From a virus, in IMG/VR virus record IMGVR_UViG_3300046000_007303, positions 1 through 25,756 of that record: a stretch of DNA of 25,756 nt; one strand, given 5' to 3'. The notes under the pieces were generated by a model. It worked only from the letters and a program-made list of their open reading frames with translations. It did not search any database and was not told the origin of the DNA. Of this stretch, positions 4,897 to 25,756 are shown in pieces; the first letter of the stretch is position 1; every line of letters begins with the position of its first letter. The translations under genes and the position numbers were made by a program.

Positions 4897-4898
4897 CC

Positions 4899-5102: not shown

Positions 5103-5105
5103 CCG

Positions 5106-6469: not shown

Positions 6470-6490
6470 ATAACAGGTGATAACAGGTAA
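6452..6490 (+). promoter_or_regulatory. competing hairpins over a ribosome-binding site
   Basis: CACCTGTTA at 6452-6460 is a perfect inverted repeat of TAACAGGTG at 6471-6479. Its first six bases also pair with CAGGTG at 6463-6468, so two hairpins compete. A third copy of the repeat unit, TAACAGGTAA at 6481-6490, contains the AGG (6485-6487) that sits seven bases before the ATG at 6495. The cluster spans the stop of the ASCH-like gene. It could regulate translation of the next gene or be a protein operator; the sequence alone does not say which. Confidence 0.45.
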
Positions 6491-6494
6491 ATTT

Positions 6495-6719
6495 ATGAAC
6501 ATCGAATCCATTATCAAACAAGCCATCGATCGCCACACCAAGGAGATCATCGAAGAAGAAGCAGCCGAGGCCGCCAAGCGCGTTGAGAAGCGCGTCCGGG
6601 AAAAGACCGGAGAAATCGCCGCCAACATCGCAAGGCACATCGAATACAACCAAATGGGGCAAGAGCTACGGATCACCGTCCGATTCCCCGAAATACCAGC
6701 AAATCCATGGACTCACTGA
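6495..6719 (+). CDS. small helical protein of unknown function
   Basis: A 74-residue protein. I chose ATG 6495 over the upstream in-frame ATG at 6477 because a good AGG ribosome-binding site lies seven bases before 6495, one of the few clear ones in this window. The sequence is almost entirely a charged amphipathic helix (E-I-I-E-E-E-A-A-E-A-A-K-R-V-E-K-R-V) and may form a coiled coil. It overlaps the next gene by 13 bases. Function unknown. Confidence 0.55.
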   Translation: MNIESIIKQAIDRHTKEIIEEEAAEAAKRVEKRVREKTGEIAANIARHIEYNQMGQELRITVRFPEIPANPWTH

Positions 6720-7090
6720 AACGCCTCATCGCCTGGATCACCAGGTGCAGACTCCACACTTGGACAACAACCCTCACAAACGGATGGGATGGTTCTCCCT
6801 TACAGCAGCGCTGCGACAAATGCCTGCAATACCGTCACAAAAGACTCTCATCCGATAAATGGATCAATGGAGAATACCCGCTCCGCCCAAAGGAGATAAA
6901 GATAAACCCCCGCAACATGGGCAAGACCGCAGCCACGACAGCCAGGTGGACCAAACTCACCCCCGAAGAGTTCAACGAAACCGGATTACACGAATCCTTC
7001 CGCGATCACTCCTACTGGAACGAAGACGGCTACCTGGTAACCGTCGCCATGCACAAGGCTGCCATCGATAACCTCAAACCAAACGATTGA
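6707..7090 (+). CDS. small protein with possible zinc ribbon
   Basis: A 127-residue protein. The N-terminus has C-R-L-H-T-W (C14, H17) and later C-D-K-C (C36, C39), a spacing that could bind one zinc ion and recalls the very small prophage zinc-ribbon proteins of the DUF1660 type. The remaining ~85 residues (W-T-K-L-T-P-E-E-F-N-E and Y-W-N-E-D-G-Y-L-V-T) are unassigned. Its start lies inside the previous gene. Two other open frames over the same bases (6583 and 6859) look like shadows. Moderate certainty that this frame is the real one. Confidence 0.5.
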   Translation: MDSLKRLIAWITRCRLHTWTTTLTNGWDGSPLQQRCDKCLQYRHKRLSSDKWINGEYPLRPKEIKINPRNMGKTAATTARWTKLTPEEFNETGLHESFRDHSYWNEDGYLVTVAMHKAAIDNLKPND

Positions 7091-7097
7091 TTGAATT

Positions 7098-7850
7098 ATG
7101 GAATGGAACGATGAAACCGAATCCCTTGCCCTCCAACACAGAGAGGCCGGGAAGACCTACGCAGAGATAGCCACAGCTCTCGGCACCTCCGCAACCAGCG
7201 TGAAGCACAAGGTAAGGCGATTACAGCAATCCAGTAACATGGATCGATACAAGCACACATCAGAGAAGACCGAACAACTGGAAGTGGCAATAGCTCACCT
7301 GAAACACGGAAAGCTCAACACGCTCGAAACCCATTGCGGATTCGGTGGAATGACAGAGCGCTACCAGAAGCTCGGCAAGGTTGATTGCTTTGACATCGAT
7401 GAGAAACGTGTGGCCTTCGTGAATGGATTATTCTTGGAAGGCGTATCGGCCGTAAAAGGTGACAGTGAGATCGAAGTATTTCGCTTAATCGCAAACCGAC
7501 AGATCTACGACATCGTTGACATCGATCCCTACGGCCTTCCCAGCCGATACTTCCCCCACGCTTTCTACCTACTGAAAAAGGGAATTATGTTCCTTACTTT
7601 CCCGGTGATGGGAGTTGCACAAATCAACAAAATAACGATCCGACATTACCAAGCCTTCTGGGACATCGAATTGGAGGACAACGAGATCTACGTCGATAAG
7701 ATCAAATCAAAGCTCGAAGACATGGCCTTTCAATGCAAGAGAGAGATTCAATTCCTCGACATCAGGAAGATCGGAAGAATTTACCGCATGGCCATCCACG
7801 TCGAAAAGAAATCCCTTTGCGATATTGTTGGCCTGGTTGTGAATAGATGA
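7098..7850 (+). CDS. HTH-SAM-dependent methyltransferase fusion
   Basis: A 250-residue protein. Residues 1-42 form a homeodomain-like helix-turn-helix (W-N-D-E-T-E-S-L-A-L, T-Y-A-E-I-A-T-A-L-G, S-V-K-H-K-V-R-R-L) of the kind that reads DNA. From about 73 on is a Rossmann-type methyltransferase: motif I L-E-T-H-C-G-F-G-G (76-84), the acidic SAM-ribose position F-D-I-D (D99/D101), and motif IV D-I-D-P-Y-G (141-146), followed by the strand I-M-F-L-T-F-P. D-P-Y-G is the form seen in Trm1-type guanine-N2 tRNA methyltransferases; adenine-N6 DNA enzymes have DPPY or NPPY, and cytosine-C5 enzymes have PCQ. The HTH suggests a DNA target, so it may modify phage DNA, but the substrate is unproven. It has the same leader TTGAATT directly before ATG as the gene at 7920. 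Confidence 0.7.
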   Translation: MEWNDETESLALQHREAGKTYAEIATALGTSATSVKHKVRRLQQSSNMDRYKHTSEKTEQLEVAIAHLKHGKLNTLETHCGFGGMTERYQKLGKVDCFDIDEKRVAFVNGLFLEGVSAVKGDSEIEVFRLIANRQIYDIVDIDPYGLPSRYFPHAFYLLKKGIMFLTFPVMGVAQINKITIRHYQAFWDIELEDNEIYVDKIKSKLEDMAFQCKREIQFLDIRKIGRIYRMAIHVEKKSLCDIVGLVVNR

Positions 7851-7868
7851 TGTTCATCTCAACAGTTG

Positions 7869-7906
7869 ACCGGATCCGGTAAGATACATTTCCCTCGCGC
7901 GCGCGA
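7869..7906. promoter_or_regulatory. two perfect 12-bp palindromes before putative terS
   Basis: ACCGGATCCGGT at 7869-7880 and TCGCGCGCGCGA at 7895-7906 are each perfect palindromes, separated by 14 bases, in the only 69-base gap between the methyltransferase and the putative small terminase gene. Such sites could bind dimeric proteins (an operator, or a terminase recognition site). I see no convincing promoter pair around them; TTGACC at 7866-7871 has no good -10 partner. Confidence 0.45.
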
Positions 7907-7919
7907 AACTTTTTGAATT

Positions 7920-8561
7920 ATGCCAGCAAAACCAAACCCAACAAAAAAGGCCGCAAAAAAGGCAGCTAAGATAGCGAAGAAGAAAGCGAAACCCAAGGCC
8001 GCCCCAAAGCAACCCGTGGCCACCACGATCGTAACCGAGCTCACGGAGCAAATCGATAACCAGGAGATCACCGACCGCAAAGGAGACGCATTGCAACCGA
8101 TCGGGCCGGATCGAATGAGACTCATGCAGGCCGATGTTATGTCGGCGATCGTAAGGAAGTTCGACGGTGACAAGCTGGCCGGGCTCCTGGATGAACTAAG
8201 CAAAGCCGAGAACATCACGAATGGAGGGCACAAGATCCCGGACAACCGGACCAGACTGAGCGCGGCCACGTTGATCCTGGCATACATGATTGGCCGCCCG
8301 GTGGAGCGCCAGGAGATCTTGAACATCAACATGAACGCGGATGCCGCTCACGACCTGGCAGAGCGCCTGAAAGGATCACCAGCACTCCGCGCAGCCTTCC
8401 GATCGATCCTGGAGCAGGCAGAGAAGCACTCAACCACTGAGGCCGTTCCACCAACCTCCACGGTGGAAGTTGTGATCCCGGCGGAAACAAAAGCACCCAC
8501 AGTAGCAAAGAAAGCTAAAGCCGTAGCAAAGAAGAGCCCAACCCTGGAGTTTGAAGATTAA
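7920..8561 (+). CDS. putative terminase small subunit
   Basis: A 213-residue protein. Residues 1-33 are a Lys/Ala/Pro tail (K-K-A-A-K-K-A-A-K-I-A-K-K-K) like a histone-H1 tail, and another such stretch is near the end (V-A-K-K-A-K-A-V-A-K-K). The core (about 65-165) is helical, with L-L-D-E-L-S-K-A, P-D-N-R-T-R-L-S-A-A-T-L-I-L-A-Y and I-G-R-P-V-E-R-Q-E-I. The 'P-D-x-x-T-R-L-x-A-A...Y-x-x-G-R-P' pattern recalls small phage proteins encoded before large terminases. TerS recognises the packaging site and feeds DNA to TerL; the basic tails would suit DNA binding. The assignment rests mainly on position and charge, and an unknown gene lies between it and TerL, so treat it as tentative. Confidence 0.45.
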   Translation: MPAKPNPTKKAAKKAAKIAKKKAKPKAAPKQPVATTIVTELTEQIDNQEITDRKGDALQPIGPDRMRLMQADVMSAIVRKFDGDKLAGLLDELSKAENITNGGHKIPDNRTRLSAATLILAYMIGRPVERQEILNINMNADAAHDLAERLKGSPALRAAFRSILEQAEKHSTTEAVPPTSTVEVVIPAETKAPTVAKKAKAVAKKSPTLEFED

Positions 8562-8575
8562 CCGACACCAATTTC

Positions 8576-9238
8576 ATGCCATTACACGAAGCATCTACCC
8601 CGCCCATCAAAGTTCTTGTTCGTCGAGAGTTTATGACCGACCACACCGCCGGGCACGGTGAATATGAGCTTGGAGTTATGATCTCGGTAAGATCCATCCC
8701 CGGCAACGCTGCGCTTTTCCAGGTATTGCTGGAGAATGGTGCATTGCGGGACAAGCTGCCGATCCACGCACTTCATTCACAAAAGCACGAGCATGAACAC
8801 CCATTCCATCATCTTCAGCTTTGGAATTGTTTCAGCTCTAATTTCAACCTGGTCGAGCTTCAGTATCTTGCTGGCCTAATTGTTGAGGTTCGCATGAAGA
8901 CGGGTAAATGGGCTCGCGGCCGATACCTTTGGACAATGCAATGGGGGTCTGACATGACACACGGGATTGATTTTACCCTTGCCGTTGATCCATCCGAGCA
9001 CAAGAGCGCTCATTTCATCCAGCTTGACAATGGGGAGTTTGCTTTACAACCCAACAACCGCCTCCGCTGGCATGAGCCCAGCCACGTCACCAAGCCTTTC
9101 CCGGATCGACCGGACTACAAAGTGAACACTGACGAGTGGAATTGTGAAGCGCACGACAAATGGGCAACCGAAGACAGCAACGATTGGATGTATCGAGTGA
9201 ACGAAGAAACTTCATCTTCTCAAAATGTTGAAGATTGA
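8576..9238 (+). CDS. hypothetical protein upstream of terL
   Basis: A 220-residue soluble protein beginning 14 bases after the putative terS. It has a His-rich stretch (H-S-Q-K-H-E-H-E-H-P-F-H-H) near residues 65-78 that could bind a metal, and a C-terminal region P-D-Y-K-V-N-T-D-E-W-N-C followed by K-W-A-T-E-D-S-N-D-W-M-Y. I do not recognise a family. Lying between terS and terL suggests a role in packaging or head assembly, by position only. The leader ACACCAATTTC lacks a Shine-Dalgarno sequence. Confidence 0.65.
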   Translation: MPLHEASTPPIKVLVRREFMTDHTAGHGEYELGVMISVRSIPGNAALFQVLLENGALRDKLPIHALHSQKHEHEHPFHHLQLWNCFSSNFNLVELQYLAGLIVEVRMKTGKWARGRYLWTMQWGSDMTHGIDFTLAVDPSEHKSAHFIQLDNGEFALQPNNRLRWHEPSHVTKPFPDRPDYKVNTDEWNCEAHDKWATEDSNDWMYRVNEETSSSQNVED

Positions 9239-9301
9239 CAGGCCTTAATGGATGTGCTTGATGTTTCGGCAACATGAAAAACCATTCACTTCAAACACTC
9301 A

Positions 9302-9385
9302 TGTCCACGTTAGTCTAGTTGGTTGGCGGCCGGGTAAGCCAAAGGACACGCAAACCCGGCAATTCATACCCTTCCGCGCCTGCGG
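9302..9385 (+). other. structured non-coding leader before terL
   Basis: The 176-base gap 9239-9414 has no convincing gene. GCCGGGT at 9329-9335 pairs with ACCCGGC at 9354-9360 (seven pairs, 18-base loop). The loop contains GGACA (9344-9348), which can pair with TGTCC at 9302-9306, so a pseudoknot is possible. A small hairpin CCGC/GCGG follows at 9374-9385. The part at 9310-9330 looks like a tRNA D-arm, but no T-arm or acceptor stem follows. It may be a regulatory or packaging RNA/DNA element. Confidence 0.35.
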
Positions 9386-9414
9386 GGATAACCAATAAGG
9401 CGCACATTTTCTTT

Positions 9415-11190
9415 ATGATCGATCAAGCCACTATCCGGGAGACAATTCGCTGGGACACAGCGGCCTGGATGGAGTCATTCGGCAAGATTCGAAAGAAGAG
9501 CGGTGAGCTCGTAAGGCCACAGGCTAACGTGTATCAGATCCGGATCAATCAAGTGATCAAAGCCGCGCATGAATCCGGCCGACCTTGCCGCCTGGTATGT
9601 CTCAAGCCCCGGCAAAAAGGATCTTCCACCTTCTCGGTTGCCGCCGGGTATCGCCGATTGCAAGCCAAGCCAGCCAGCGGGCTCATTGCGGGAGGTGCGC
9701 ATTTCCAGGGGAAGAACTTATTCAAGATCTTGTCCACTTACGCCGAGACTGACGAGCTCGACCCACGATCATGCAAAGTAATGGACTCCGAGGCGCGCTT
9801 TTCCAATGGATCATCGATGGAGCGGATCACGCTGGCCAACCAGAACGCAGGCCGATCCGGCACTTTCCAGGTGTTGATCATCACCGAGGTTGCTTACCTG
9901 GCAGAAGAGGGAGTCGCCAACGCCGACCAGGTGTTGAACGGCCTTCTCAAGTGCGTACCAAACGAGCCCGACACACTGATCATCGAAGAGAGCACAGGCA
10001 AAGGTGCCAGTGGATTCTTTTACGATCGATTCGACAAGGCGATCACGCTCGAAGAGTTCCTTGCTGGCAAGAACGGCTATGTCAAAGTGTTCGCGGCCTG
10101 GTTCGAGTTCGATGATTCTCGCCTACCTCCAGAGAGTGAAGGAATCTACTCTTTCAGCGATCTCACCCCACAGGAGCAGAAGCTCTCCGAGAAGTGGAGC
10201 CTGGATCTTTATCAGGTCGCATGGATGCGATGGGCGATCCGAGACGAGTGTAACGGTGACTTCGATCGGTTTTGCCAGGATTATCCCTTCGATCCGGAAA
10301 GCGCCTTCCTCAAATCTGGCCAATGCCGATTCGATCAGGCCGGGCTCGATCACCAGGCAGAGATGTCAAAGCGTATTCCTCGCCAGTTCGGTGCACTTGA
10401 ATACAACCAACGTGCCGACCGTGTTTCCTGGACGCCAACCAGCGAGCAAACCGCCCGCGTCGTCCGATGGGAGCAGCCGCGCCCAGGATGTCGCTACCTG
10501 GTTGCAATCGACCCAATGACAGGAGCCAGTCAAACCGGAGGAATTGATCCCGACAGTCATGGAGTGTTCGTATTCCGGCAAGGCTACGTCGAAAGCGGCC
10601 GCTGGGTGCCTCCAGCCGTTGTTATGCGCAACATCCTTGTAAAAGACGGGATCCGGTTCGGATGTTGGTGGGACATCGACGTTCTTACCGAAGAGGTTTG
10701 GCGCATGGCTCGCTACTACCAAGCCAAGATCATCCCGGAGATGAACATGGACAAGGGAATGGTGGAACTTCTCAAACTCAAAGGAGACGTGGACATTTAC
10801 CAGCGCGAGCTCTTCAACAACCGTGAGAACGTAATTACGAAGGCCTATGGCTGGATGACGGACGTTCGGACCAGGGGAATGATTATTGAAAACCTTGCCC
10901 GAGGTGTGCGCGAGACAGGCCGGGGAGAATTTGGCGAAGGCCTGCACATCCGGTGCCCTTGGGCGATCGAGCAGATGCGCCATTTCGTGACCAAAGCCAA
11001 CGGGAAAGCCGAAGCTTCGCAAGGCAAGCACGACGACGACGTATTGGCGATTGCCATTGGATTCCAGCTTATCGACCAGGCAACTCCCTGGTTCGAAAAT
11101 GCGCGGGAGGAATGGACACCGCCGGATCTTCGTAGCCAAAGCCAATACTACAACCGACCAGTGCCCAAAAAATCTACGTTTTCCGCTTGA
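9415..11190 (+). CDS. terL: terminase large subunit (TerL)
   Basis: A 591-residue protein. I take ATG 9415; the frame extends to a TTG at 9319, but that would place the structured leader inside the protein. The ATPase domain has a variant Walker A K-P-R-Q-K-G-S-S-T (64-72), Walker B V-L-I-I-T-E (153-158) and the coupling motif E-E-S-T-G-K-G (191-197). The RNase H-like nuclease domain has V-A-I-D-P (D366), then I-I-P-E-M-N-M-D-K-G (the second acidic residue), and H-D-D-D-V (539-543). TerL is the motor that pumps DNA into the prohead and cuts it. All motifs are present, so it should be functional. Antisense open frames over it are shadows. The nearest AAGG is 14 bases upstream, too far for a good ribosome-binding site. 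Confidence 0.93.
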   Translation: MIDQATIRETIRWDTAAWMESFGKIRKKSGELVRPQANVYQIRINQVIKAAHESGRPCRLVCLKPRQKGSSTFSVAAGYRRLQAKPASGLIAGGAHFQGKNLFKILSTYAETDELDPRSCKVMDSEARFSNGSSMERITLANQNAGRSGTFQVLIITEVAYLAEEGVANADQVLNGLLKCVPNEPDTLIIEESTGKGASGFFYDRFDKAITLEEFLAGKNGYVKVFAAWFEFDDSRLPPESEGIYSFSDLTPQEQKLSEKWSLDLYQVAWMRWAIRDECNGDFDRFCQDYPFDPESAFLKSGQCRFDQAGLDHQAEMSKRIPRQFGALEYNQRADRVSWTPTSEQTARVVRWEQPRPGCRYLVAIDPMTGASQTGGIDPDSHGVFVFRQGYVESGRWVPPAVVMRNILVKDGIRFGCWWDIDVLTEEVWRMARYYQAKIIPEMNMDKGMVELLKLKGDVDIYQRELFNNRENVITKAYGWMTDVRTRGMIIENLARGVRETGRGEFGEGLHIRCPWAIEQMRHFVTKANGKAEASQGKHDDDVLAIAIGFQLIDQATPWFENAREEWTPPDLRSQSQYYNRPVPKKSTFSA

Positions 11191-13169: not shown

Positions 13170-16100
13170 ATGGAAGACTTTCTCGATGAAGAACAAGAAG
13201 AGAATCCGTCGATGTTTACCCAAAAGCCAAGTAGCGCTATGCGACGTGGTATGGGTGAAACAGCGGTGACTGACAACGTAAGCCCGCAAAGCGGATTCGC
13301 AGCAAAGACCGCACCTCCAGTGTGGAGAATGTTCGTCGATAACGTGGCCTTCCAGAAGAGCAACGCTCAAGCGATCGCTTCCGAGCGACAAGCTCTCAGT
13401 CGATCTGATGCGGCCGTGAGAGAGTCCCAGCGCCTCGCAGAAAAAAACGACCCGGTGAAGCTGGGATTTGAGCGCGAGCTTGATTCTACTCAAAACGAAA
13501 TTTCCAGGATCTCACTTACTCGCCAAGATCCAAACTTCAAGCGCCTTGATAAAAAGGAGCGCGAAATGTTTGAGGCTGAGTATGGAATGAAGGAGACTTC
13601 AGCCCAGCGCAAGAAAGAGCTCGATGCCGTCCTTGGACGCGAAAAACAGCTCGATGAAGAGGATCAGCACCTTTACGGCCTGAAGGTCAAAGCCAATGAG
13701 CTCAAGATTGGAGGCCCTGGCTACTGGCAGCAGACCTACGCGCAACAGCAAAAGGACATTGCCGACCAAGGCAACGAAGCGGCCAGCAACGCGCAAGGCC
13801 GGGCGAAAGCACTCGAAACGGCCGACAACTCAGCGGCCCAGGAGGAAACCGCACTCATGCAGAAAATGCAGCAGGGTGTTCGAGGCACGGAGTTGACGGA
13901 AACCCAGGCCAAGCTCAAAGAGCTCAAGCAAACCCGCGAGGCCTTCGCAGAGCAGAAAGCAGCACCGGACCAGGAAGTTGAAGCGGTTCGTGGACAGGCC
14001 CAGCAAAGCCTGGAGGGAGAGCGACGCCAACGTGAAGCGCAGATCCGCGAGAGTATCAACATCAAAAACCTGGATCGACTGACGGGAGTAGAAAGGGGAG
14101 GACTTGAGGCCACCAAAGATACCGTAACAGTATTAGGCAAAGCCGTCTCCGATCTGAACACTTTGGATGTTCCTAGTGAGGGAGAGCGCATGAAGAAAAA
14201 GGCTTCCGTTCAATATCTTGAGGAACAGTTGAACGGAATGACAGCAAGGCTTGGTGGGCGTGAAAACGTCAGGGCTGACTTGCAGGCTAGAATCGCCAAC
14301 TATGATAAAGCGCTCAAAGAAAATCCTAATTCAACATGGAGCGAAACCAGGCTGGATAACGTGATGCTTCTCAAAATGCTTGAGCGCCAGGACGAGAAGT
14401 TTGCCGAAGCTGGCATTACGGATCCGAAAGACCGGGAGCGTATCGTCAAAGATGCAGCGCTAGAAAATTACTGGACGGCACAAGATACCGACAACGTGCG
14501 GGGACTTTCCACCGGAGAGGTTGTTTTTAACCCAGCTCGAATCTTTGGCCAGCGGGACCGGATCGAGGCAGACATCAAAGCGAAAGCTGGAAGCGAAGCC
14601 GATGCGGCCGAAGCCATTGCTCGAATGGAAGCAGTGAGAGTGAATGTAGTAGCGAAGATCGCCGAGGATTTAAGGAAATCGGACGGAAGTTTCAAGACGC
14701 ATGAGTCGGCAATGAAAAAAGCCGGAGTTACCGATGAAGTGAAGATCGTTGATTCCTACGCGGCCACGATGAGGGATCGCAATGAGATCATCAAATTCGG
14801 TGATGCCGTGATAACGGGCGTCAAAGAGGGTGGAGCGGGCATATACAAAACCGCAGTAGGCGGGACAGCCGGAGCCGTCAGATTGGTAGGTGCCGATGAA
14901 CTGGCAGGAAGTATGGGCGCTCACGCGCAAGAAGTAGGGAAATACATTGCCGCTTCAGATTCCGCTTTCGATACCAGAGGCAATACCGGGTATCTCTCTG
15001 TAAGCAAAGACCTTTCGGGAACTGTCACTCAAATGGCTCCGATGTTTGTCGGTGGAGCGTATGCAAAAGGGCTGAAAGGGATCACCCAGGCCATCGTAGC
15101 AGGGACTTCAGTTTATGGATGGGCAGGAGCACAAGGCTACGAATCAAAACTTTCCGACGCAATCGAAATAGAGAAAGAGAAGTTCGGAGGCCGTGACCTA
15201 ACCGAGAAAGAAATAGCATCTACTCTTGGCCGGGCCGACGTGCAGCTTTCAGCGTTTGCAAACGCAGCGCAAACCATGATTCTGGCGAAAGTATTAGGCG
15301 GAGGTGTTGAGCGAGCAGCGCTTGGCAAAGCAGCGCAATCGATGAGCCTTCGTGACTTCCTCACAAAAGGAGGCCGCAGAGCTCTCCAGGACAGCACATT
15401 ACGAGCGGAGCTCAAGAAGATGGGTAAAACCATTTTCGCCGATGCAAAAGATGAGTTTGTCGAAGAAGGACTTAACCAATTCTTAGACAAAGCCATTTCA
15501 GCCGTCGGCCTGGGACAAGATTTCAAACTTGGAGATGTGCTCGAAGAATCGATCCATGCAGGTTTAATGGGCGCGGTTGTCGGTGGAGGCCTTCCCCAAC
15601 TCAGAAGAGGCGAACAAGCCAGCGCTGAACATGACGAAAGAAAAGGGGTCAACACTCGCCTGATCGCTCAAGATCCAGGAAGCCCGAAAGCTCAACAGGA
15701 CGAGATCGACAAGGCCAAGGCCATTGCCGAAAAGCCAAGCGATCTGGATGATGTGGCGAAACACGTCGCAATCACTCGTGAGATCAACGCAAAGGAAGAA
15801 GCAGGAAAGCAATCTTTCATCGAAGCTCAGGAGAAATATACCCAGGCCCAGGCGACAGGAGATCCGGTTGCGATCGCGCAGGCCGAGCAAGTTTTAGGCA
15901 AAGCCACCGCAGAAGCGGCCGCCCCGACGCAAACCAAGGGGATGCTTAAAATCACCAACGGCAAAGGTTTGGAAACTCTTACCGATGCCGAAGTCAAATC
16001 GCTTGGCATCACTCGTGAAGGCAAACCAGTTTCCGCAAAAGAACTGGCCGCCGCCGGGCTCACTGCACCACTGGTGTCAAATAATACAGCAGACGGATCT

Positions 16101-19100
16101 TTAGTCATTACCGACGCAGGCAGCGCTATAATGGGTAGCGTATCACCAGCAGCAAAGACTCAGGTGACAATGGACGAAACTCAGTATCGTGCCGCCGCTA
16201 TCGCTAAAGCACAGGCCGCAGCAGCAGGAACAGCTCCAGGAGCCGCAGCAGGAACTACCGGATCGACCGGATCAACCGGAACCGCACCGGGATCAAGAAC
16301 CGCGCCCGAAGAAGCACCATTTTCCCCAAAAGGCATAATAAAAAGAACCAACGCCGAGCTTGATCAAAAAGAAACGGAGTTGAAAGCAATCCTTCGCCAA
16401 AATGTCACTGATCCTGACGGCCAAGAAGTAGCCAAGCTTGCGCAGTTGAGCATTGACGCTATCCGCGCAGAGAAAGACCGTCGTGCAGCAGATCCTAACT
16501 TTGTCGATCCAGCGGCCGCAACACCAGGAATCGCACCAACTGACCGTGTTTTCCGGATCACCGGAACGAATGGCACCGTGATCGAAGTCACCGCCCGCAA
16601 CGAAGCCGACGCGCAGAATCAAGCCGTGTCCGATCCTTCCTGGCAAGGTGGAGAGAAAGTTGACAGTGTGCTCGATGTAACACCGGAAACCGCCGAAATC
16701 AATTTAGGTGCAGAAGTGCAGCCTGGTGCAAATGCACCGACCAACACTGGTGCACCAACCTCAACCGATCGCCCTGAAGTTAGAATCAAGAAAGCACTCG
16801 CCAAAGCGAAGAAGATGCTTGGAGACGGCCTCAAGATTACCAACGACCCGAATAAGAAGACGGCCGCTCACGAAGATGGCACGATTGTAATCAACATCGA
16901 CCAACTCAAGGCCGCCGCCGCAAAGCGGAACATGAGCGAAGAGGAAACAAGCGTTTGGATTTCCAAGTCGATCGACGAGGAAGTTCGCCACGCCGCTCAA
17001 CACCGCGCAGCCCAGGCAATCTGGAAAAGCAAGGGCAGCCCCGGCGACTATGTTACATGGCGCAATGAGCATTACGGCAAAATCTGGCAAAATGAGTTTG
17101 TCGCATCAGGCAAGGATCAGATGGTTATCGATATTTACGGTGCCAAACTTGCCAGGTATGAGCCTTGGGAAAAGGCTTTCGAAGGCCTCCGCATCATCCA
17201 GCAAAAGACGGCCACCGGATCCCCGACCGAGATCGCCAAGTTTTGGGCAAATCTTCGCCAGGAAACGGTTGATCACCTTCGCGCAGCCCTGAAAGCGCTC
17301 AAAGAGCTTGTGGCCAGCGGCCTATCCCCGGAGCTCCAGGTGGAGATCGACGCGATCACCGCGCAACTCAAGGAATACGACAAGGCCAACAAGCCCGCGA
17401 AAGCAGCGCCAGCGCCGAAATCAGCGCCCCAGGCCGATGCTTCACGATGGACATTCAAAGAAATAGCAGATGATCTTTACAATCTTGGCGCTGGAGAAAT
17501 CTCTAGTCTTTCCGACTTTTCGCCAAAAGGACCAAGGGGAACCACAACTAACGAAATGCCATCACGGCAAGACTTAGAAGGTTTATTCGGCAAGCCATTT
17601 ACTGAAGAGGAATGGATCGATTTGCAGAACGATTATGTAGGTGGGCGTAATTTTGCAGAATCGCAAGCAGCCGAGGAAAGCGCCCCAACGGAGCCACAAG
17701 AGCCAAAGCAGCCAACGCAAGTCACTTTCGTTCGTAATGGTGAAACCATCACCGGTACATTCCGTATCCAATCGGAGAAGAACGGCAAGATCATCGTCGA
17801 AGTGAACGGCAAGAACGTCCTGGTTGATCCTTCCGAGATCGTGGAGCAGCCGAAACCCGTTTCTGCTAAACCACAGGAAACTAGCAGCAAATCACCAGAA
17901 ACCCCAGAATGGGAGAATTTCCCCGAAGAGTTTCAATCGCTTGGAATCCCGCGCGCCGAGATGCCACAGATCAAAGCCGAGGACCGCTCCGCAATGGTGC
18001 AGTTCCTCAAAGCCCGTGGAATTAACTACGAGGCCGACGTGATGATGCGCCCCTCGCAGCTTTCCCCAACCCAGGCGGAATACTCACGCGAGAAGGTTGA
18101 AAAAGCCAAATCCTACGAAGGAGGCAATCGCGCAATCCTTGTTTCCGCCAATGGCCGGGTTATTGACGGCCATCACCAGTGGCTTGCAGCTCTCGAAACC
18201 GATCCAGACACGCCGATCAAAGTAATCATCCTCGAAGCTCCGGTTATGGAGATCCTGGAAACCGTCAAGCAGATGCCTTCCGTGGAAACGGCCGAGGGAG
18301 CCTCAGCCCCGGCTCCAGCGCCCGCTCCGGCCCCCATCGCCGATTTTTCCCAGGCCGAATATGCAAAACGCAAACGCGCACTCAACAAAGCGATTAAAGC
18401 AAAGGATTGGCCGACCGTAGTAGCGAAGGCCACCGCCGACTTGGAGTATTTTGAAAAAACAGTATTCCCGGATGATTGGTCGATGTGGGAGCGCGCCAAG
18501 GAAGACGCTGAACAGCAAATCTCGCCTCGCAATTATGTTGAGCCGATTTTAAAACCATACGTTCCGGCCTCGGAAGCAGCGCCCCAAGCTAAACCAGCGC
18601 CCGCACCCGCAGCGAAGCCAGCTCTTTCCGAGGGAGAAAGCGCTCTCAAAAATATGTTCACCGATCTGGTCGATGGACTGGAAACAGCAGAACTTACCGA
18701 CGAGTTTTACCAGCAGCCGATCCCGGTAGCGAAAATGGGGCAACTCATTGGTGCCGCTCAAATCTTGATCTCCGAGGGAGTCACGACGCCAGAAGGCCTG
18801 GCCGCTTCTCTCGACAGGATCTCACCGAAGCTCCGCGTTTATTCCAAAGCGGTGTGGGGTGGGTTCGTGATGGCCAATCCGTCCCTGCAAAGCGATGTGA
18901 AGTGGCTCGACGTGTATGCGGAGATCGACGCCGCGAAACTTGACAATCAGCAACAACTAGAAGACAGTAACAGTGATGAGACGAATCAATCCAATCTTGG
19001 TAGTGAAGATCAGGAAACTGGTGAACAACTGGAACCAGGATCTAAAGGATCCGTGGATTCCAAGCCCGGCAGCGATCTCGATAGCCCAGGCGATCAAAAA

Positions 19101-22100
19101 CGGAGCCCCAACAATGGCAAGGCTTCTGGAGGAGGCAAAAATACTGGAAGCGTGGGCGGAAGATCTCCACGACCAGGTAATCGATCTGACTCATCAGCAA
19201 GTGGACCAGGGGAGGGAAGCGGGAGCGGCCCTGAATCAAGCAATGCTGGAACTGGTGCCAGCAACACCGGAAACGGAACTGGAGTGGCTGGAAATCAACA
19301 GCCTGCCTACTCAGGAAGACCTGGCTACCGTTTAACCGATCCGGAGAAGATTATTGGAGCAAAGGGTCCGAAAGACCGTTTCGCGCGAAATCAGAAAGCT
19401 CTTGAAACTTTCGACCGGGTATTTTCCGAAGGTCGTGAACCGACACCGGAAGAGCTTGACGCGATGGCCGCTTACATAGGCTGGGGAAGTTTCGGCCAGG
19501 AGCTCTTCCAAGGCTCATGGGATCGCCCCAATCCAAAGGACGAGTGGACAAAGGAAAGCGAATGGCTCCGCGAGCACCTTGGCCAAGCAGGATGGGAAAG
19601 CATCCGAGATTCGATCATCAACGCTCATTACACGGATCCTCCGCACGTCAAAGCGTTGTGGGACATTGTTCAGCACCTTGGATTCAAGGGCGGCCGGACG
19701 CTGGAGCCATCGATGGGCATTGGCAATTTCTTTGGCCTTATGCCGGACGTGCTCCGCTCGAAGAGCTCTCTCACCGGGATCGAGCTTGATAGCGTGGTAG
19801 GAGGAATGGCGAAAATGCTTTATCCAGATGCGAACATTCGGATCATGGGCTACGAGAAGAGCGCCACCGCAGACAATTTCTACGATCTGATTATCGGCAA
19901 CTGGCCTTTCCACAAGGAAGGACCAAGCGACACCCGATACAATCACCTAAAACTCTCACTCCACGATTATTTCTTCGTGAAAGCTCTCGATCAGGTTCGC
20001 CCAGGCGGCCTGGTTGTCGGAATTACTTCGTCGGGAACGATGGACAAAAAAGGCCAGGTAGCCCGCCGCCAGATGGCGAAGCGAGCAAAACTCGTTGGCG
20101 CGTTCCGATTCCCGTCTGGAGCATTTAAAGGCTACGCGGGCACCTCCGTCGTTACCGACGTAATCATCCTCCAGAAGCGCACCGAGCAGCTTTCCGAGGC
20201 AGGCAATGAGGAATGGATCGAAAGCGAACGAATCGGCGAAAAAGACAAACAATTCAATGCCAACGTCTATTGGAGAGACAATCCAACCCATATACTCGGC
20301 GAAATGAAATACGGACACGGCACTACCTTTGGTAGAGCTGGAATGACCGTAGAAAGGCCGGACAACTACGAAACCCTGCTTGGATCCATCACCGACAAAC
20401 TCCCAGCCGGGATCTACACGGAAGGCCAGCAGCGCCCCGATCGCAAGGAGTTCTTTAACCGTGAGAACGGAGAACCGCAAAACAGTGTGGTCTATGAAGA
20501 CGGCAGCACCGCCAACCCGAAAGGTTTCTACATCGTCCGGGGAGAGCAGTTGCAACCCCTTTCCGAAGTATTCAAGTGGGAAGTGAAGAGCGAGGCCGAG
20601 ACGAAAAAGCGCAGCGATCAGCTTTCGGCACTTCTGGATCTCCGGAAACAGGTCAAAGAATTGCTCACTTCGCAACGGGAAGACTATCCAGATACCAATT
20701 CGCGCAGATCGGAAGCTCTCGCCACCTTCAATGCTTTCGTCAAAAAACACGGGAGCATTAAGGATTCCACGATGATTAAGGCATTTGAAAAGGCCAACGA
20801 TCCGATGGCGCTCACCCTCCTTAACCTGGAGCGGAAAGAAAACGGAAAAACCGTTCCCCGCGACATTCTCCTGAAAGACATCATGCGCCGTGCGGTTGTC
20901 GATGTTCGAGGAAATATCCAAGATGCGTACGCGATCCAGCGGAACGAAAGCATAAGCCTCGACATAGCCAGGATCGCGGAGATCTCCGAAAGCACCGAGC
21001 AGGAAGTCGTCGATCGCCTTCTTGATCTGAATCAAATCTACAAAACTCCGGCAGGCACCTGGGAGACAGGTGAAGAGTATCTTGGCGGCAACGTCAGGAG
21101 AAAACTACGCGAAGCCATTGACGCCAAAGAGCAGGGATTCGACATGGATCGGAATATCGCAGCCCTGGAGAATATCCAGCCTGCCGATGTCGCCTATTTC
21201 GAGATTGAAGTTCAAATGGGAGCTTCATGGATCTCGAAAGAGGATTATCTCGGATATGTCTCTCACTTGCTTGGAGCTGATCCAGAAATGGCCGAGAAAA
21301 ACTTTACTTTAACCAAGGCCTCTTCAGGCTGGAATTTCAAAGTCAATAATGACGGCTTAGGCCGGGGAACTAACGCCAAGGAGAAATACGGAGTCGCCCA
21401 GCTTCCTTTCGCTAAAATTTTCCAAGCTGCGATGAACAACACGCAGGTAAAAGTCTGGAATCCAAAAGACGACGATGGCCGAGTCACCTTGAACGACGAA
21501 GCGACCAAGATCGCCAACGGCAAAGTTGACACGATCCGCGAGGAATTAGCCGAGTGGCTATGGGCCGACCCAGCCCGCACCGGTAGGCTTTCCAATGACT
21601 ACAACGAGGTAATGAACTCAGAAGTCACCCCGAAACGTAACGGGGATCATCTTCGCCTTGAAGGCCTGGCATTGAAAATGGGTAATTCCGAGTTCGATTT
21701 CCGCAAGCATCAGAAAGATGCGGTATGGAGATTCATCATGGATGGGAAAGGTGTTGGCGCTCACGAGGTCGGCACGGGTAAAACCTTCACTATGGCCGGG
21801 CTCGCCGTCGAAGGCCGGAGGCTTGGGAAATTCCGTAAAACACTCATTTTTGCTCACAACGCAAACTCCCAGGCTGTCTATGAAGAATTTCAAATGGCAT
21901 ACCCCAACGGGAAGTTCCTTTATGTGGACAATCTAAGCCCTGAAAACCGGGATTCAGCATTGAGGCAAATCGCTTTGGATGAATGGGATGCCGTGATCGT
22001 GCCACACTCTTTGATTGAGCGATTCACGTTATCTGAAAAAACATTGATGCAGATTGCTGACAAGCAGATCGTGGCACTTGAAAACGAAATTGCCCAGGAG

Positions 22101-25100
22101 CTTGAAGATATTGGCTACAATCAAGAGCTGGATCTTGACGACATGAAATCCGTCGGCATGGCGTTGAAATATGTTAAGGACTCTTCCACCGCAAAAGAAT
22201 TGGTGAAACAACGTATCGCCATCAGAAAGCGCATTGCCGATAAGGCAGCGAAAGCGCAGGCCGAAGGTGCAATCCTTTTCGAAGATCTTGGGATCGACAA
22301 TATCATCGTCGATGAAGCGCACATTTTCAAAAAAATCAACCTTGCTACCAGGAAGGTAATCAAAGGCCTGAACAAAGTGGAAAGCGGTATCGGTTGGCAA
22401 ATGGGAGCCATTACCGACTACGTTAAAGGCCAAAACGGAGGAAAAGGTGTGTATCTCTTCACCGGGACGCCGCTTACCAACAACCTGAACGAAGCCTACA
22501 ACATGATGCGCTTTGTGATGGATGAGGAAATGAGCGATAGCGGAATCGACAACTTTGACGACTGGTTCAATTCCTTCGCAGCTGCGGTTTCCGATGTTGA
22601 GCTCACCACCGGAGGCACCCATGAGCCTGTCACTCGACTACTATCCTTTGTCAACGTGCCAGAACTGGCTCGGATGGCTGGCAGGTATTTCGATGTAGTT
22701 CTCGCCAAGGATATGCCGGAGTTCAAAGACCGGGAATCAACTGAAGGCATGACCGAAAATCCGGTTGGAAGACCTTTCAAGGCCGTTAAAACGGTGATTT
22801 CCGACATGAGCCCTGAGCAGCTCGCCCATAAGGAGCAGATCCGCCAGCAATACGTCGAATATCAGGCGATGGACGGAAAAGGCAAAATGTTGGCCATGAA
22901 AATGGGCAGGCCGACTCCTATCACAATGGAAGGCCAAGGAACGGCCTCGGCGCTCGATTATCGTCTCGTTGATCCAACAGCCCCAGATTACGCAGGGAGC
23001 AAGATCAACATGATGCTTGGTAACGCGATGACTCATTACAATGAGCACCCGGAATCCACTCAAATGATCTTCATGGAGCGAGGATTGAACGATTACACCG
23101 ATAACGATGAAATTATTCGAGATGAATTCGGGATGCCCACTTACGACGATGAAGGCAAAGCCCGCCGTCGCAAAGTCAGAAGGCCGAAGTTCAACCTTGC
23201 GCGTGACATTGTTGAAAAACTGATGGCCCAGGGAGTAGCACCGGAGGAAATCGCCATTCTCGGAAATATGTCGCTCGATCCTATCGCTTTGCGCCCAAAT
23301 GACCCTCTCCGCAAGGTTTTGAAGATTTCGGCTAAGTTGACCAAGGCGGATATTGCCTCCCTCGCAAATCAGGGGAAAGTGCGCTTTATGATCGGCGGCA
23401 CCGAAACAATGGGAACCGGAGTCAATGCCCAGCGCAACCTCCGCGCAATGCACCATCTTGACGCCCCCTGGACGCCTGGCGCTCTTGAACAGCGCAACGG
23501 ACGCGGCTGGAGACAAGGCAACAGATGGAACACCGTGAATGAATACCGCTATTTCGCGGAAGGATCACACGACGGCCGCCGCTGGCAGGTCCTTTTGAAC
23601 AAGGTGCGATTCATCTACCGATTCACTCAAATGCTTCTCAATACGGAGGGGCAAAACAATCTCCGCGTTCTCGCCGGGGACGGTGCCGACATGAACGAAG
23701 GAGGATCGAGCGTCGCTGACTTCGAGCAATCTTTCTCGGCAGCGGCCGGGGATCCTCGCCTTTTGCTCCGGGCCAAGCTCGCGGCAGATGTCAATAAACT
23801 TGAACGGAAGCGCGACACCCATTTCCGATCCATCGAAAAAGCACGGGAATCGATCCGCGATCTCAAGAAAGATGAAAAGTATGAAAAGGACCAGCTTGAG
23901 TTCTTTGAAAAAGTCATTGATGTAATCAAAGGCACCTTCACCAAAGATTTTGAATTTCAATTCCTTGGCAAGACCTATACCGAGCGGAAAAAAGCGGAAG
24001 AGGCAATCGCCAATCAACCTATCCCAACCAGTAAGGATGACGGCAAGATCCTTGGAAAATATGGCGACAACATCACCCTTCGCCTCAAATGGGATTCTGG
24101 AAGCAATCAGCCGATCCAATGGAGAATTGAGATAGCTCTCCCAAATGGAGCCAGGCACGAAATGACACTTGGAGCTCAAAGCCTCGGATCGTTGGAAGGA
24201 TCCATGCGCGGCCTGATGAGGAACGTCTCAAACAGGCAAGAGAGATTCGGCGATTTCGCCAAGTCGATCGCCTCGCTTGAGGAAATGCTTGGAAAAGAAT
24301 TTACCCGCCAGCCGGAATTGGATTCCAAGAAAAAGGCGCTTTTGCAGATCCTCACCGAATTATCACAATCACCGTTCCCGGCACCATCATGGCTCCGTAA
24401 TGGAGCTCCGGCTGGATCCTTAGTTTATGTCGATGGGGAAGCCCGCGACGTCGAGGCACACCGCTGGGACAAAACAGGCTACTGGATATTACTGGAAAGT
24501 GAAAACGGCGGATTAGTCCCGGTCGATTACAGGAAGGTTATGGATGAAGCCGGGAATAGGCTCTTTGAAGATCATCCATTTGAAGCACCACCTGACAGCA
24601 AGGAGCTTACCGAGGAAGAGATTCGCGGAGTTCTTGGAGGCGAGTTTTTCCTTGCGAGCCCGGATGATACCTCGGCGAGCGGTGATGGATGGTTTATTTC
24701 CGGCCTTTTCCGCGATGTTGGCAAATGGCGGATATACAACTCAGATGGAGATATTCTCGGCGAAGGAGAATCAGCAGGAGAAGCCTACAAGGCCTATCTC
24801 GCTGAAACCACTGAAACCAAGCCAGAGGAAAAAGAAGTCGAAGAGTCACAATACGACCTCGCTGGATTCATCCAGGACGCGCGCCAGGGCTCGAAAGGCT
24901 CACCGCAGCGGATCAAACTCCGTCGCCAGCTCGAAGGCCTGGAGAAAGCGCTTACTCGCTTTGACGAGCAGTTTGAGGGGCAACTCCTAACTCCGCGCCA
25001 AGAGATGATTAAAGATCAGATCAGGGAAGCGGAGGAAGAGCTGGAAGAACTCAAAAGACGCCCAGGATTGGACTACAAGGAATACGACAAACTTCACGCA

Positions 25101-25756
25101 GTTCAGAGCAAAAAACTCGAAGGGCTCGATAAAAAACTAAGGTCTGGATCTGGACGTGAAAACCTAGTGAACAAAATTAAAGAGGTTCGCAAGAAGCTGA
25201 CCGATATGGAGGAAGAGGCAATGAGCCAAACTCAATCCACGTTGATTCCTTACGGATTTACCAAGCGCGAAGATGGCGGCCTGGAAACGGCCGATCTCTA
25301 CGATTTGCCCATCGAAGCCAACCCGGTGGAACTGGCCAAGCATTTAGGCAAAATCTATTTCACCGTGCTCATCAGCGATCCTGAAACTTATGTATTGCGT
25401 CCAAATTATTTTGAAACAAAAAAAGATGCTGAAGAGGCTAGAGCGAACGATCAAATTGTTATTGAGCAAAGGCGAGAAGAAGCTTTCCAGATGATCAAAG
25501 CAATAAACGAAGAGCTTTTTGGAAAAAGACTGGAAAATGCCGATCTGTCCGACGAGATGCCGGAATTCTATTCCCAGCTATCGCGCACGATTACCGAAAA
25601 AATGCCGAAAACGGCAACGCCTATGCAGGTGCTTCAGATTGCCAAAGCCGGAGCCAAGGCTGACGAAATCAAGTGGAGCGGACTTATTCCCTGGTTGCAA
25701 GGCAAAGAAAAGGTTTCCAAGGACGACGTGCTTAACTGGCTTGCCACTGAGGGCCT
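13170..25756 (+). CDS. giant polyvalent protein: DarB-like MTase-SNF2 helicase (partial)
   Basis: One uninterrupted frame from ATG 13170 to the window end, at least 4,195 codons; I read it through and found no stop. Order of parts: acidic N-terminus and coiled coils (about residues 90-300); Gly-rich hydrophobic segments (about 545-575, 621-658, 795-806); an E-E-V-R-H-A-A-Q-H motif (1270-1278); a ParB/Srx-like D-G-H-H-Q-W (1666-1671); a Gly/Ser linker (about 1925-2045); an N6-adenine-type methyltransferase with motif I L-E-P-S-M-G-I-G-N (2178-2186) and motif IV N-W-P-F (2244-2247); an SNF2-type helicase with G-T-G-K-T (2868-2872), D-E-A-H (3048-3051) and Q-R-N-G-R-G-W-R-Q (3441-3449); then coiled coils and, at the edge, a K-W-S-G-L-x-x-W-L module common in phage giant proteins. 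DarB of phage P1 has the same MTase-helicase pairing and is injected to block restriction. Injection here is inference. Confidence 0.88.
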   Translation, partial: MEDFLDEEQEENPSMFTQKPSSAMRRGMGETAVTDNVSPQSGFAAKTAPPVWRMFVDNVAFQKSNAQAIASERQALSRSDAAVRESQRLAEKNDPVKLGFERELDSTQNEISRISLTRQDPNFKRLDKKEREMFEAEYGMKETSAQRKKELDAVLGREKQLDEEDQHLYGLKVKANELKIGGPGYWQQTYAQQQKDIADQGNEAASNAQGRAKALETADNSAAQEETALMQKMQQGVRGTELTETQAKLKELKQTREAFAEQKAAPDQEVEAVRGQAQQSLEGERRQREAQIRESINIKNLDRLTGVERGGLEATKDTVTVLGKAVSDLNTLDVPSEGERMKKKASVQYLEEQLNGMTARLGGRENVRADLQARIANYDKALKENPNSTWSETRLDNVMLLKMLERQDEKFAEAGITDPKDRERIVKDAALENYWTAQDTDNVRGLSTGEVVFNPARIFGQRDRIEADIKAKAGSEADAAEAIARMEAVRVNVVAKIAEDLRKSDGSFKTHESAMKKAGVTDEVKIVDSYAATMRDRNEIIKFGDAVITGVKEGGAGIYKTAVGGTAGAVRLVGADELAGSMGAHAQEVGKYIAASDSAFDTRGNTGYLSVSKDLSGTVTQMAPMFVGGAYAKGLKGITQAIVAGTSVYGWAGAQGYESKLSDAIEIEKEKFGGRDLTEKEIASTLGRADVQLSAFANAAQTMILAKVLGGGVERAALGKAAQSMSLRDFLTKGGRRALQDSTLRAELKKMGKTIFADAKDEFVEEGLNQFLDKAISAVGLGQDFKLGDVLEESIHAGLMGAVVGGGLPQLRRGEQASAEHDERKGVNTRLIAQDPGSPKAQQDEIDKAKAIAEKPSDLDDVAKHVAITREINAKEEAGKQSFIEAQEKYTQAQATGDPVAIAQAEQVLGKATAEAAAPTQTKGMLKITNGKGLETLTDAEVKSLGITREGKPVSAKELAAAGLTAPLVSNNTADGSLVITDAGSAIMGSVSPAAKTQVTMDETQYRAAAIAKAQAAAAGTAPGAAAGTTGSTGSTGTAPGSRTAPEEAPFSPKGIIKRTNAELDQKETELKAILRQNVTDPDGQEVAKLAQLSIDAIRAEKDRRAADPNFVDPAAATPGIAPTDRVFRITGTNGTVIEVTARNEADAQNQAVSDPSWQGGEKVDSVLDVTPETAEINLGAEVQPGANAPTNTGAPTSTDRPEVRIKKALAKAKKMLGDGLKITNDPNKKTAAHEDGTIVINIDQLKAAAAKRNMSEEETSVWISKSIDEEVRHAAQHRAAQAIWKSKGSPGDYVTWRNEHYGKIWQNEFVASGKDQMVIDIYGAKLARYEPWEKAFEGLRIIQQKTATGSPTEIAKFWANLRQETVDHLRAALKALKELVASGLSPELQVEIDAITAQLKEYDKANKPAKAAPAPKSAPQADASRWTFKEIADDLYNLGAGEISSLSDFSPKGPRGTTTNEMPSRQDLEGLFGKPFTEEEWIDLQNDYVGGRNFAESQAAEESAPTEPQEPKQPTQVTFVRNGETITGTFRIQSEKNGKIIVEVNGKNVLVDPSEIVEQPKPVSAKPQETSSKSPETPEWENFPEEFQSLGIPRAEMPQIKAEDRSAMVQFLKARGINYEADVMMRPSQLSPTQAEYSREKVEKAKSYEGGNRAILVSANGRVIDGHHQWLAALETDPDTPIKVIILEAPVMEILETVKQMPSVETAEGASAPAPAPAPAPIADFSQAEYAKRKRALNKAIKAKDWPTVVAKATADLEYFEKTVFPDDWSMWERAKEDAEQQISPRNYVEPILKPYVPASEAAPQAKPAPAPAAKPALSEGESALKNMFTDLVDGLETAELTDEFYQQPIPVAKMGQLIGAAQILISEGVTTPEGLAASLDRISPKLRVYSKAVWGGFVMANPSLQSDVKWLDVYAEIDAAKLDNQQQLEDSNSDETNQSNLGSEDQETGEQLEPGSKGSVDSKPGSDLDSPGDQKRSPNNGKASGGGKNTGSVGGRSPRPGNRSDSSASGPGEGSGSGPESSNAGTGASNTGNGTGVAGNQQPAYSGRPGYRLTDPEKIIGAKGPKDRFARNQKALETFDRVFSEGREPTPEELDAMAAYIGWGSFGQELFQGSWDRPNPKDEWTKESEWLREHLGQAGWESIRDSIINAHYTDPPHVKALWDIVQHLGFKGGRTLEPSMGIGNFFGLMPDVLRSKSSLTGIELDSVVGGMAKMLYPDANIRIMGYEKSATADNFYDLIIGNWPFHKEGPSDTRYNHLKLSLHDYFFVKALDQVRPGGLVVGITSSGTMDKKGQVARRQMAKRAKLVGAFRFPSGAFKGYAGTSVVTDVIILQKRTEQLSEAGNEEWIESERIGEKDKQFNANVYWRDNPTHILGEMKYGHGTTFGRAGMTVERPDNYETLLGSITDKLPAGIYTEGQQRPDRKEFFNRENGEPQNSVVYEDGSTANPKGFYIVRGEQLQPLSEVFKWEVKSEAETKKRSDQLSALLDLRKQVKELLTSQREDYPDTNSRRSEALATFNAFVKKHGSIKDSTMIKAFEKANDPMALTLLNLERKENGKTVPRDILLKDIMRRAVVDVRGNIQDAYAIQRNESISLDIARIAEISESTEQEVVDRLLDLNQIYKTPAGTWETGEEYLGGNVRRKLREAIDAKEQGFDMDRNIAALENIQPADVAYFEIEVQMGASWISKEDYLGYVSHLLGADPEMAEKNFTLTKASSGWNFKVNNDGLGRGTNAKEKYGVAQLPFAKIFQAAMNNTQVKVWNPKDDDGRVTLNDEATKIANGKVDTIREELAEWLWADPARTGRLSNDYNEVMNSEVTPKRNGDHLRLEGLALKMGNSEFDFRKHQKDAVWRFIMDGKGVGAHEVGTGKTFTMAGLAVEGRRLGKFRKTLIFAHNANSQAVYEEFQMAYPNGKFLYVDNLSPENRDSALRQIALDEWDAVIVPHSLIERFTLSEKTLMQIADKQIVALENEIAQELEDIGYNQELDLDDMKSVGMALKYVKDSSTAKELVKQRIAIRKRIADKAAKAQAEGAILFEDLGIDNIIVDEAHIFKKINLATRKVIKGLNKVESGIGWQMGAITDYVKGQNGGKGVYLFTGTPLTNNLNEAYNMMRFVMDEEMSDSGIDNFDDWFNSFAAAVSDVELTTGGTHEPVTRLLSFVNVPELARMAGRYFDVVLAKDMPEFKDRESTEGMTENPVGRPFKAVKTVISDMSPEQLAHKEQIRQQYVEYQAMDGKGKMLAMKMGRPTPITMEGQGTASALDYRLVDPTAPDYAGSKINMMLGNAMTHYNEHPESTQMIFMERGLNDYTDNDEIIRDEFGMPTYDDEGKARRRKVRRPKFNLARDIVEKLMAQGVAPEEIAILGNMSLDPIALRPNDPLRKVLKISAKLTKADIASLANQGKVRFMIGGTETMGTGVNAQRNLRAMHHLDAPWTPGALEQRNGRGWRQGNRWNTVNEYRYFAEGSHDGRRWQVLLNKVRFIYRFTQMLLNTEGQNNLRVLAGDGADMNEGGSSVADFEQSFSAAAGDPRLLLRAKLAADVNKLERKRDTHFRSIEKARESIRDLKKDEKYEKDQLEFFEKVIDVIKGTFTKDFEFQFLGKTYTERKKAEEAIANQPIPTSKDDGKILGKYGDNITLRLKWDSGSNQPIQWRIEIALPNGARHEMTLGAQSLGSLEGSMRGLMRNVSNRQERFGDFAKSIASLEEMLGKEFTRQPELDSKKKALLQILTELSQSPFPAPSWLRNGAPAGSLVYVDGEARDVEAHRWDKTGYWILLESENGGLVPVDYRKVMDEAGNRLFEDHPFEAPPDSKELTEEEIRGVLGGEFFLASPDDTSASGDGWFISGLFRDVGKWRIYNSDGDILGEGESAGEAYKAYLAETTETKPEEKEVEESQYDLAGFIQDARQGSKGSPQRIKLRRQLEGLEKALTRFDEQFEGQLLTPRQEMIKDQIREAEEELEELKRRPGLDYKEYDKLHAVQSKKLEGLDKKLRSGSGRENLVNKIKEVRKKLTDMEEEAMSQTQSTLIPYGFTKREDGGLETADLYDLPIEANPVELAKHLGKIYFTVLISDPETYVLRPNYFETKKDAEEARANDQIVIEQRREEAFQMIKAINEELFGKRLENADLSDEMPEFYSQLSRTITEKMPKTATPMQVLQIAKAGAKADEIKWSGLIPWLQGKEKVSKDDVLNWLATEG
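18973..19335 (+). other. long overlapping +1 reading frame inside the giant gene
   Basis: A 120-codon frame offset by +1 from the giant protein starts with GTGATG at 18973/18976 and ends at TAA 19333-19335. It exactly covers the Gly/Ser/Asn-rich linker of the main frame, just before the methyltransferase domain. The alternative product looks like a folded helical protein (A-R-L-L-E-E-A-K-I-L-E-A-W-A-E-D-L) with Leu mostly as CTG. It could be an overprinted gene, the product of a frameshift that truncates the giant protein, or a relic of an ancestral frame. A Thr/Gly/Ser-rich linker naturally reads as Leu/Glu/Ala in this offset (ACT GGA gives CTG GA), so chance is a serious alternative. No Shine-Dalgarno sequence precedes it. 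Confidence 0.3.

Follow-up and report, generated by a model that had tools for sequence, protein, structure and literature searches.

We analysed a viral DNA of 25,756 nucleotides (IMG/VR record IMGVR_UViG_3300046000_007303, positions 1 to 25,756; hereafter the window) and found that a short open reading frame (ORF) at 18973..19335 on the plus strand very probably encodes a protein and is a true gene, lying nested in a giant DarB-like gene and in its +1 frame. The giant ORF occupies the main frame from 13170 to 25754 on the same strand and runs off the end of the 25,756-base record; the small ORF lies wholly inside it. The case is built on aligned same-frame homologues, an inverted codon-position pattern and an AlphaFold2 fold. 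An overprinted gene was among the meanings that an earlier sequence-only reading had proposed for this overlap, and it is the one that the homologues and the codon-position pattern support.

The +1 frame is free of stops over 124 codons (18961-19332), between a TAG at 18958-18960 (plus strand) and the TAA at 19333-19335 that ends the small ORF. Two start codons are candidates, GTG 18973 (120 aa) and ATG 18976 (119 aa), and 12 nt separate the upstream TAG from the GTG. The open frame, its GTGATG start and its two bounding stops are thus as the sequence-only reading had described them. That reading had also placed the overlap between two domain blocks, over a low-complexity stretch of the main frame, and this description holds: the small ORF sits between a conserved block that ends near 18950 and an LPD36/methylase block that starts near 19338. 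The main frame between them is a linker (18948..19337, plus strand), recognized by its translation (rich in G/S/N/D/P/E/T), its slow third codon positions and its composition. Directly 3' of the nested gene lie the start of an LPD36-like domain and the adenine methylase block (19338..20400, plus strand). In a profile search the giant matched phrog_10089 (DarB-like antirestriction) with an E-value of 1.4e-130 over window positions 19338-20600, the methylase part. LPD36 was assigned via motif and position rather than via a profile; the excerpts of PMC5512222 describe LPD36, with a GXGU motif, as N-terminal to the methylase. The order in the giant is an N-terminal polyvalent region, then LPD36, the adenine methylase and an SNF2 helicase.

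A skewed linker might leave the +1 frame open by chance, with nothing made from it. We therefore asked what openness is worth. When the linker was recoded synonymously 20,000 times, with its amino acids fixed and codons drawn from the usage of the giant, 40.5% of the recodings retained a +1 frame open for at least 120 codons, and a longer open +1 run (157 codons) is present elsewhere in the giant gene. Bare openness of the small ORF thus proves nothing beyond chance, and because so many recodings stay open we dropped ORF length as evidence. The reverse test gave another picture. When the small protein was recoded, the main frame was stop-free in none of 1000 recodings (mean 6.6 stops), and the main frame lacks stops over all 82 distinct small ORFs collected below, where 2.9 to 7.1 stops are expected (13 simulated). 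A control +1 ORF in the giant, at 24544..24990 on the plus strand, is not conserved: stops are present in relatives, and position 3 remains the fastest. The sequence-only reading had allowed for a chance origin from composition; this stands for the bare open frame, and the start in the window, which has no Shine-Dalgarno (SD) sequence, also suits it. The enrichment of SD motifs and the confident fold speak against chance, and the codon-position pattern and the aligned homologues refute it as the whole account; it is scarcely credible.

To obtain relatives unbiased by the small ORF, we seeded a scan of viral contigs with the methylase block. It returned nine loci, three identical to the window over the stretch read and six distinct (L005-L010). 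In 6/6 of the distinct relatives this frame has no stops ahead of the methylase and encodes an alignable product. A profile of these products matched a same-frame ORF in phages USP_25 (E 1.6e-24), Mwe-JY07 (1.9e-8) and PEp14 (8.6e-5), and also in Itty13 (0.004) and VvAW1 (0.009). Scanning viral sequences with the small proteins of Mwe-JY07, PEp14, Itty13 and VvAW1, we found that the giant frame spans the small ORF in 52/52 loci; three single-member scans gave eight loci, four of them new (L093-L096), again with the giant frame across the small ORF in 4/4. Stops in homologues, to which the sequence-only reading had looked as a sign against a gene, thus interrupt neither frame in these sets. Altogether, the nested sequences comprise 82 distinct members in 58 clusters at 80% identity.

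Among 18 phage records matched by the methylase, 13 carry the small ORF, matched at better than 0.01 by a profile or by Pfam TnpV: PBC5, USP_25, Itty13, PEp14, VvAW1, Mwe-JY07, JC1, POI1126, Atu_ph08 and four gut contigs. In the Bacteroides phage BKO1-TP3 (L105), an unrelated +1 ORF of 87 aa lies at the corresponding place before the methylase (2666-2926); it was not counted, as a scan found no relatives of it.

Do both frames evolve under selection? From 74 rows representing 65 different regions, 238 pairs had enough common words; we summed the 15 pairs of 3-30% divergence that share no sequence, and treated the pair formed by the window and L005 separately. In the flanks, differences at main-frame positions 1, 2 and 3 were 814/5760, 766/5742 and 1670/5747 (0.141, 0.133 and 0.291). 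In the overlap they were 232/1577, 95/1577 and 91/1577 (0.147, 0.060 and 0.058). The fastest position inside the overlap is therefore main position 1, which is position 3 of the small gene, and position 1 exceeded position 3 in 14/15 pairs. Conservation at main-frame synonymous sites, which the sequence-only reading had proposed to compare, is in strong excess across the overlap (0.058 versus 0.291 in the flanks).

The window and L005 show where along the giant this occurs. Their small products are identical at 84/120 residues, the overlapped main frame at 55/118. In 60-codon windows along most of the giant, position 1 reached position 3 in four consecutive windows, 18816-19367, and also in two windows of the divergent tail (24972-25322); position 3 itself is slow in the linker only, for example with 31, 15 and 10 differences at positions 1 to 3 in 19068-19247. 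A comparison of the window with L006 flagged the linker and three divergent windows elsewhere. The inverted pattern also appears in pairs among four further loci (L109, L117, L118, L119; see below). These comparisons show that both frames have been kept, with selection within the overlap acting mainly on the small frame.

The +1 product had been read as a helical protein, and structure prediction agrees: given 23 family sequences, AlphaFold2 folded the small protein of the window into seven helices with a pLDDT of 93.0 and a pTM of 0.83. The PEp14 member scored lower (pLDDT 78.7, pTM 0.57), with its first 70 residues near 90. Alone, the small protein of the window has no Pfam match, chance-level matches in PHROGs, and four matches to phage sequences at E 1 to 9; the sequence-only reading had named a lack of protein matches as a sign against a gene, and the outcome is mixed, as this product has none above chance whereas the wider family matches TnpV and phrog_938. 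A PDB sequence search returned designed helical proteins only. The best E-value in a PDB fold search was 2.7 and a second search reached Z 3.6 with no row trusted, which does not show the fold to be new. Among viral structure models the best match was Q8W6J4 (prob 1.00, E 0.025), which, from its accession, is probably a PBC5 protein. In phrog_938, a PHROGs family named endolysin, the small domain lies near the end, at positions 2084-2173 of 2185; a small ORF of the family may therefore be mis-named endolysin by automatic annotation.

How would the small protein be started? We counted SD-like motifs at 82 distinct sequences (from 92 rows) and excluded 10 that have no ATG, GTG or TTG at the assumed coordinate; in those 10 the matched segment begins inside the gene or the start was not assigned, and a broken copy, L070, is among the 82. 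A GGAG, GAGG or AGGA stands at the right distance from 62/72 ATG/GTG starts of the small gene, against 651/6833 (9.5%) same-frame ATG/GTG codons elsewhere in the loci. Counted by clusters at 80% identity, the motif is present in 41/49, and it is strong at the start in L005, a relative of the window. P-values calculated for such counts take no account of relatedness among the sequences, and we give them no weight.

Another meaning offered by the sequence-only reading was a programmed frameshift, by which the giant would end in the small domain after its N-terminal half and so lack both methylase and helicase. Such a route requires the small frame to be readable from upstream, and it is not usefully open into the preceding block of the giant. 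Same-frame stops lie 3 to 237 nt upstream of the start (median 81), within 30 nt in 12/49 cluster representatives, down to 3-6 nt, and 12 nt before the start in the window. With stops so close, and an own ATG with an SD-like motif in most loci, frameshifting is improbable as the main route. Four Verrucomicrobia loci, described below, have no N-terminal part to join, and free-standing copies exist. What favours a frameshift is phrog_938, with its domain near the end, and the Sinorhizobium phage PBC5 (L011). At 1781-2485 of PBC5, the ORF of the N-terminal part shares its frame with the small domain but not with the methylase. The methylase frame of PBC5 is open across the small gene too, and the layout could be explained by a shift of one base in this old record or equally by a real fusion. 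The start motifs and upstream stops fit internal initiation and would leave little room for frameshifting.

The linker could also have been made by two compensating frameshifts, in which case the giant was once read in what is now a dead +1 frame. This would in principle leave a structured protein in the other frame, and the N-terminal part of PBC5 is readable in frame with it. A dead frame, however, would not hold slow positions 1 and 2 in many lineages, nor a start, an SD-like motif and a stop, and free-standing relatives and TnpV have starts and stops of their own. We consider this account, likewise raised by the sequence-only reading, very improbable, and less so only than chance. Internal initiation of a nested gene is the reading that we retain.

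To what family does the nested gene belong? Profile-profile comparisons formed a chain. The clade of the window (A6) matched an intermediate set, A7 (Prob 90.9, E 1.2e-6); A7 matched a large proteobacterial set, A4 (Prob 96.5, E 7.1e-10); and A4 matched TnpV (A8; Prob 77.8, E 1.9e-5). Non-adjacent pairs gave probabilities of 26.9 (A6 versus A4) and 2.2 (A7 versus TnpV). Against Pfam PF14198 (TnpV), 26/34 proteobacterial members matched at E up to 1, the best at 1.5e-4; the reported scores fall below the 27-bit gathering cut-off where shown, and the best shown for the PEp14 type is 20.7 bits. The protein of the window has no match to TnpV, and the ORFs of gut contigs L106, L109, L110 and L111 score well above the cut-off. 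The gene of the window would thus be a distant relative of TnpV at most, and not TnpV itself. TnpV (of Tn4451-type and other mobile elements) and the window protein are alike in being small, helical and of mobile elements; they differ in that the latter has no Pfam match and no direct profile match, and is joined to TnpV via two intermediate sets.

The bona fide TnpV genes of L106, L109, L110 and L111 lie in the same relative frame inside a giant ORF. TnpV-like ORFs are likewise nested in plasmids L114 and L116, gut contig L117 and viral contig L118; the covering frame of L119 stays free of stops over just 1.5 kb. The hosts of nested TnpV are methylase/SNF2 giants of gut contigs and Clostridia plasmids. 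Nesting occurs at two places in the giants: in the proteobacterial phages the small gene adjoins LPD36, and in the gut set it lies ~2-3 kb 5' of the methylase. TnpV stands free in L113 and L115, with stops in the covering frame. In Streptococcus phage ZKB4, a TnpV lies just downstream of an SNF2 gene; we dropped this association, the TnpV being split and beside tet(O), as in phiNJ3.

Small genes also turned up in bacteria. A scan of 84,980 species genomes yielded 20 loci. In 13/20 (nine proteobacterial, four Verrucomicrobia) the small gene is spanned by a giant or methylase frame, two (L070, L085) lie in decayed surroundings, and in five (L069, L071, L073, L082, L087) the locus holds no detectable giant. 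The Verrucomicrobia loci lack the N-terminal part; their methylase frame has a conserved beginning ~60 nt upstream of the small gene and contains that gene in its 5' end. L069, L073 and L082 are intact free-standing copies, without a detectable giant in the fetched locus, and L069 has a strong SD sequence; these three hint that the small protein is worth keeping alone. Plasmids searched with a proteobacterial-type member gave no match, and with a Nitrospirota solo copy three matches at E 0.1 to 0.9, which were not used.

As to function, the gene could be real and its product Xis-like, acting in excision or integration, its place in the giant being incidental. For TnpV of Tn4451 a part in excision is postulated, on the ground that it is homologous to lambda Xis, in the excerpted text of PMC3158075, a TnpV transposase gene is named in that of PMC9815147, and the free-standing TnpV of phiNJ3 lies near recombinase genes. 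Weighing against an incidental place, phages, Verrucomicrobia loci and Clostridia plasmids all have the small gene nested in a methylase-helicase gene, and the relation of the window to TnpV is indirect. We regard an Xis-like role as unlikely, though a more serious contender than a frameshift.

Because the nesting recurs, we favour a partner or regulator of the methylase-helicase module. In the model that we propose, ribosomes would start the small protein internally on the mRNA of the giant, using an ATG preceded by a separate SD sequence in most relatives, and ribosomes in the giant frame would pass through and make a disordered linker, whose composition would largely be the codons of the small helical protein read one frame off. 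The small protein would belong to a wider TnpV superfamily. Nesting would fix its co-inheritance and co-expression with the antirestriction methylase-helicase, and the protein would most likely work with or regulate that module, for example as an accessory subunit; this is the weakest step of the model.

We examined the linker as a possible shadow of the small gene. When 13 small proteins were randomly recoded and read one frame off, 69-80% of residues came from G, S, N, D, P, E, Q, T, R and A; in the real overlapped frames, 85-93% did. Since recoding alone yields most of this bias, the Gly/Ser/Asn linker appears to be largely a shadow of the small gene, sharpened by stop avoidance. The small frame is probably the older one, as it has a structured, better conserved product and free-standing relatives, and the linker of the giant would be the newer, accommodating sequence. 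A family tree built from few columns left 34/65 inner branches open, and the solo label needs eight changes, three forced by starred branches; such a tree cannot prove the direction of evolution, which we infer from the solo copies and the structure.

Several observations weigh against a nested gene with a role beside the giant. Translation of the small frame is a prediction from sequence comparison and a modelled fold. In the window itself the start is among the 10/72 without a clear SD sequence, and one pair, L008-L009, shows no codon-position shift. Five of the 18 phage loci have no significant small ORF: in the ~3 kb read 5' of the methylase, none is present in Streptococcus ZKB4, Thermus Lalka27b or P1, the ORF of Y7 is open but its match is not significant, and BKO1-TP3 has the unrelated ORF mentioned above. 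The clade of the window compared directly with TnpV gives a profile Prob of 0.1, so that the link exists through the chain only. The proposed functional partnership is read from the nesting alone, and solo copies exist.

Taken together, these results suggest a nested gene with good confidence. A wider reading, to which we give an even chance, is that of an ancient nested pair spread across phages, prophages and conjugative or plasmid elements of several phyla, in which a TnpV-superfamily gene is covered by a methylase-SNF2 giant, the linker is a frame shadow, and the two form one functional unit. Nested phage genes have seldom been shown to be kept over such distances. These loci give direct access to what TnpV, a protein common in mobile elements, does, and they allow a test of whether a small partner of DarB-type antirestriction has been overlooked.

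Where annotation admits a single gene at each position, nested genes are missed or broken up. A separate gene for the small ORF is annotated in 0/21 matched phage records, in which the larger genes alone are listed there. In the Pseudomonas phage Itty13 (L013, NC_070969.1), all three annotated genes of the stretch are opposite in strand to the giant and the small gene, and the giant is absent from the annotation. In the Monoglobus pectinilyticus plasmid NZ_OY725736.1 (L114), the giant frame is open from 4160 across TnpV (4160-10348); the annotation lists TnpV at 5022-5354 and an SNF2-related gene from 7271 only, that is, shortened. Further upstream in the window, genes match a DnaB-like replicative helicase (phrog_19, E 6e-99), a family named ferredoxin (phrog_3704, E 8.7e-63) and, weakly, a terminase-like family (phrog_24361, E 2e-7), at 1396-2859, 8576-9238 and 9319-11190, respectively.

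Our literature search, outside of which lay most subscription papers and all preprints, found no gene nested in DarB-like giants and no overlap of TnpV with a giant. The covering giant is of the same kind as the DarB-like polyvalent proteins with LPD36, adenine methylase and SNF2 helicase presented in PMC5512222, the excerpts of which make no mention of an overlapping gene, a frameshift or TnpV. According to the same excerpts, P1 DarB travels in the virion and protects DNA against type I restriction; unlike the giant of the window, P1 has no nested ORF in the stretch read. In DarB-like giants, a frame shadow has probably been taken for a linker so far. As in the overprinted or nested genes of viruses, such as tombusvirus p22/p19 (excerpts of PMC11044054 and PMC8227390), two proteins would be read in two frames of one DNA. 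Those accounts of overprinting have a new ORF emerging inside an existing gene. In the present case it is probably the covering frame that is newer, and the usual story would be reversed: an old, structured small gene would have acquired a new covering frame.

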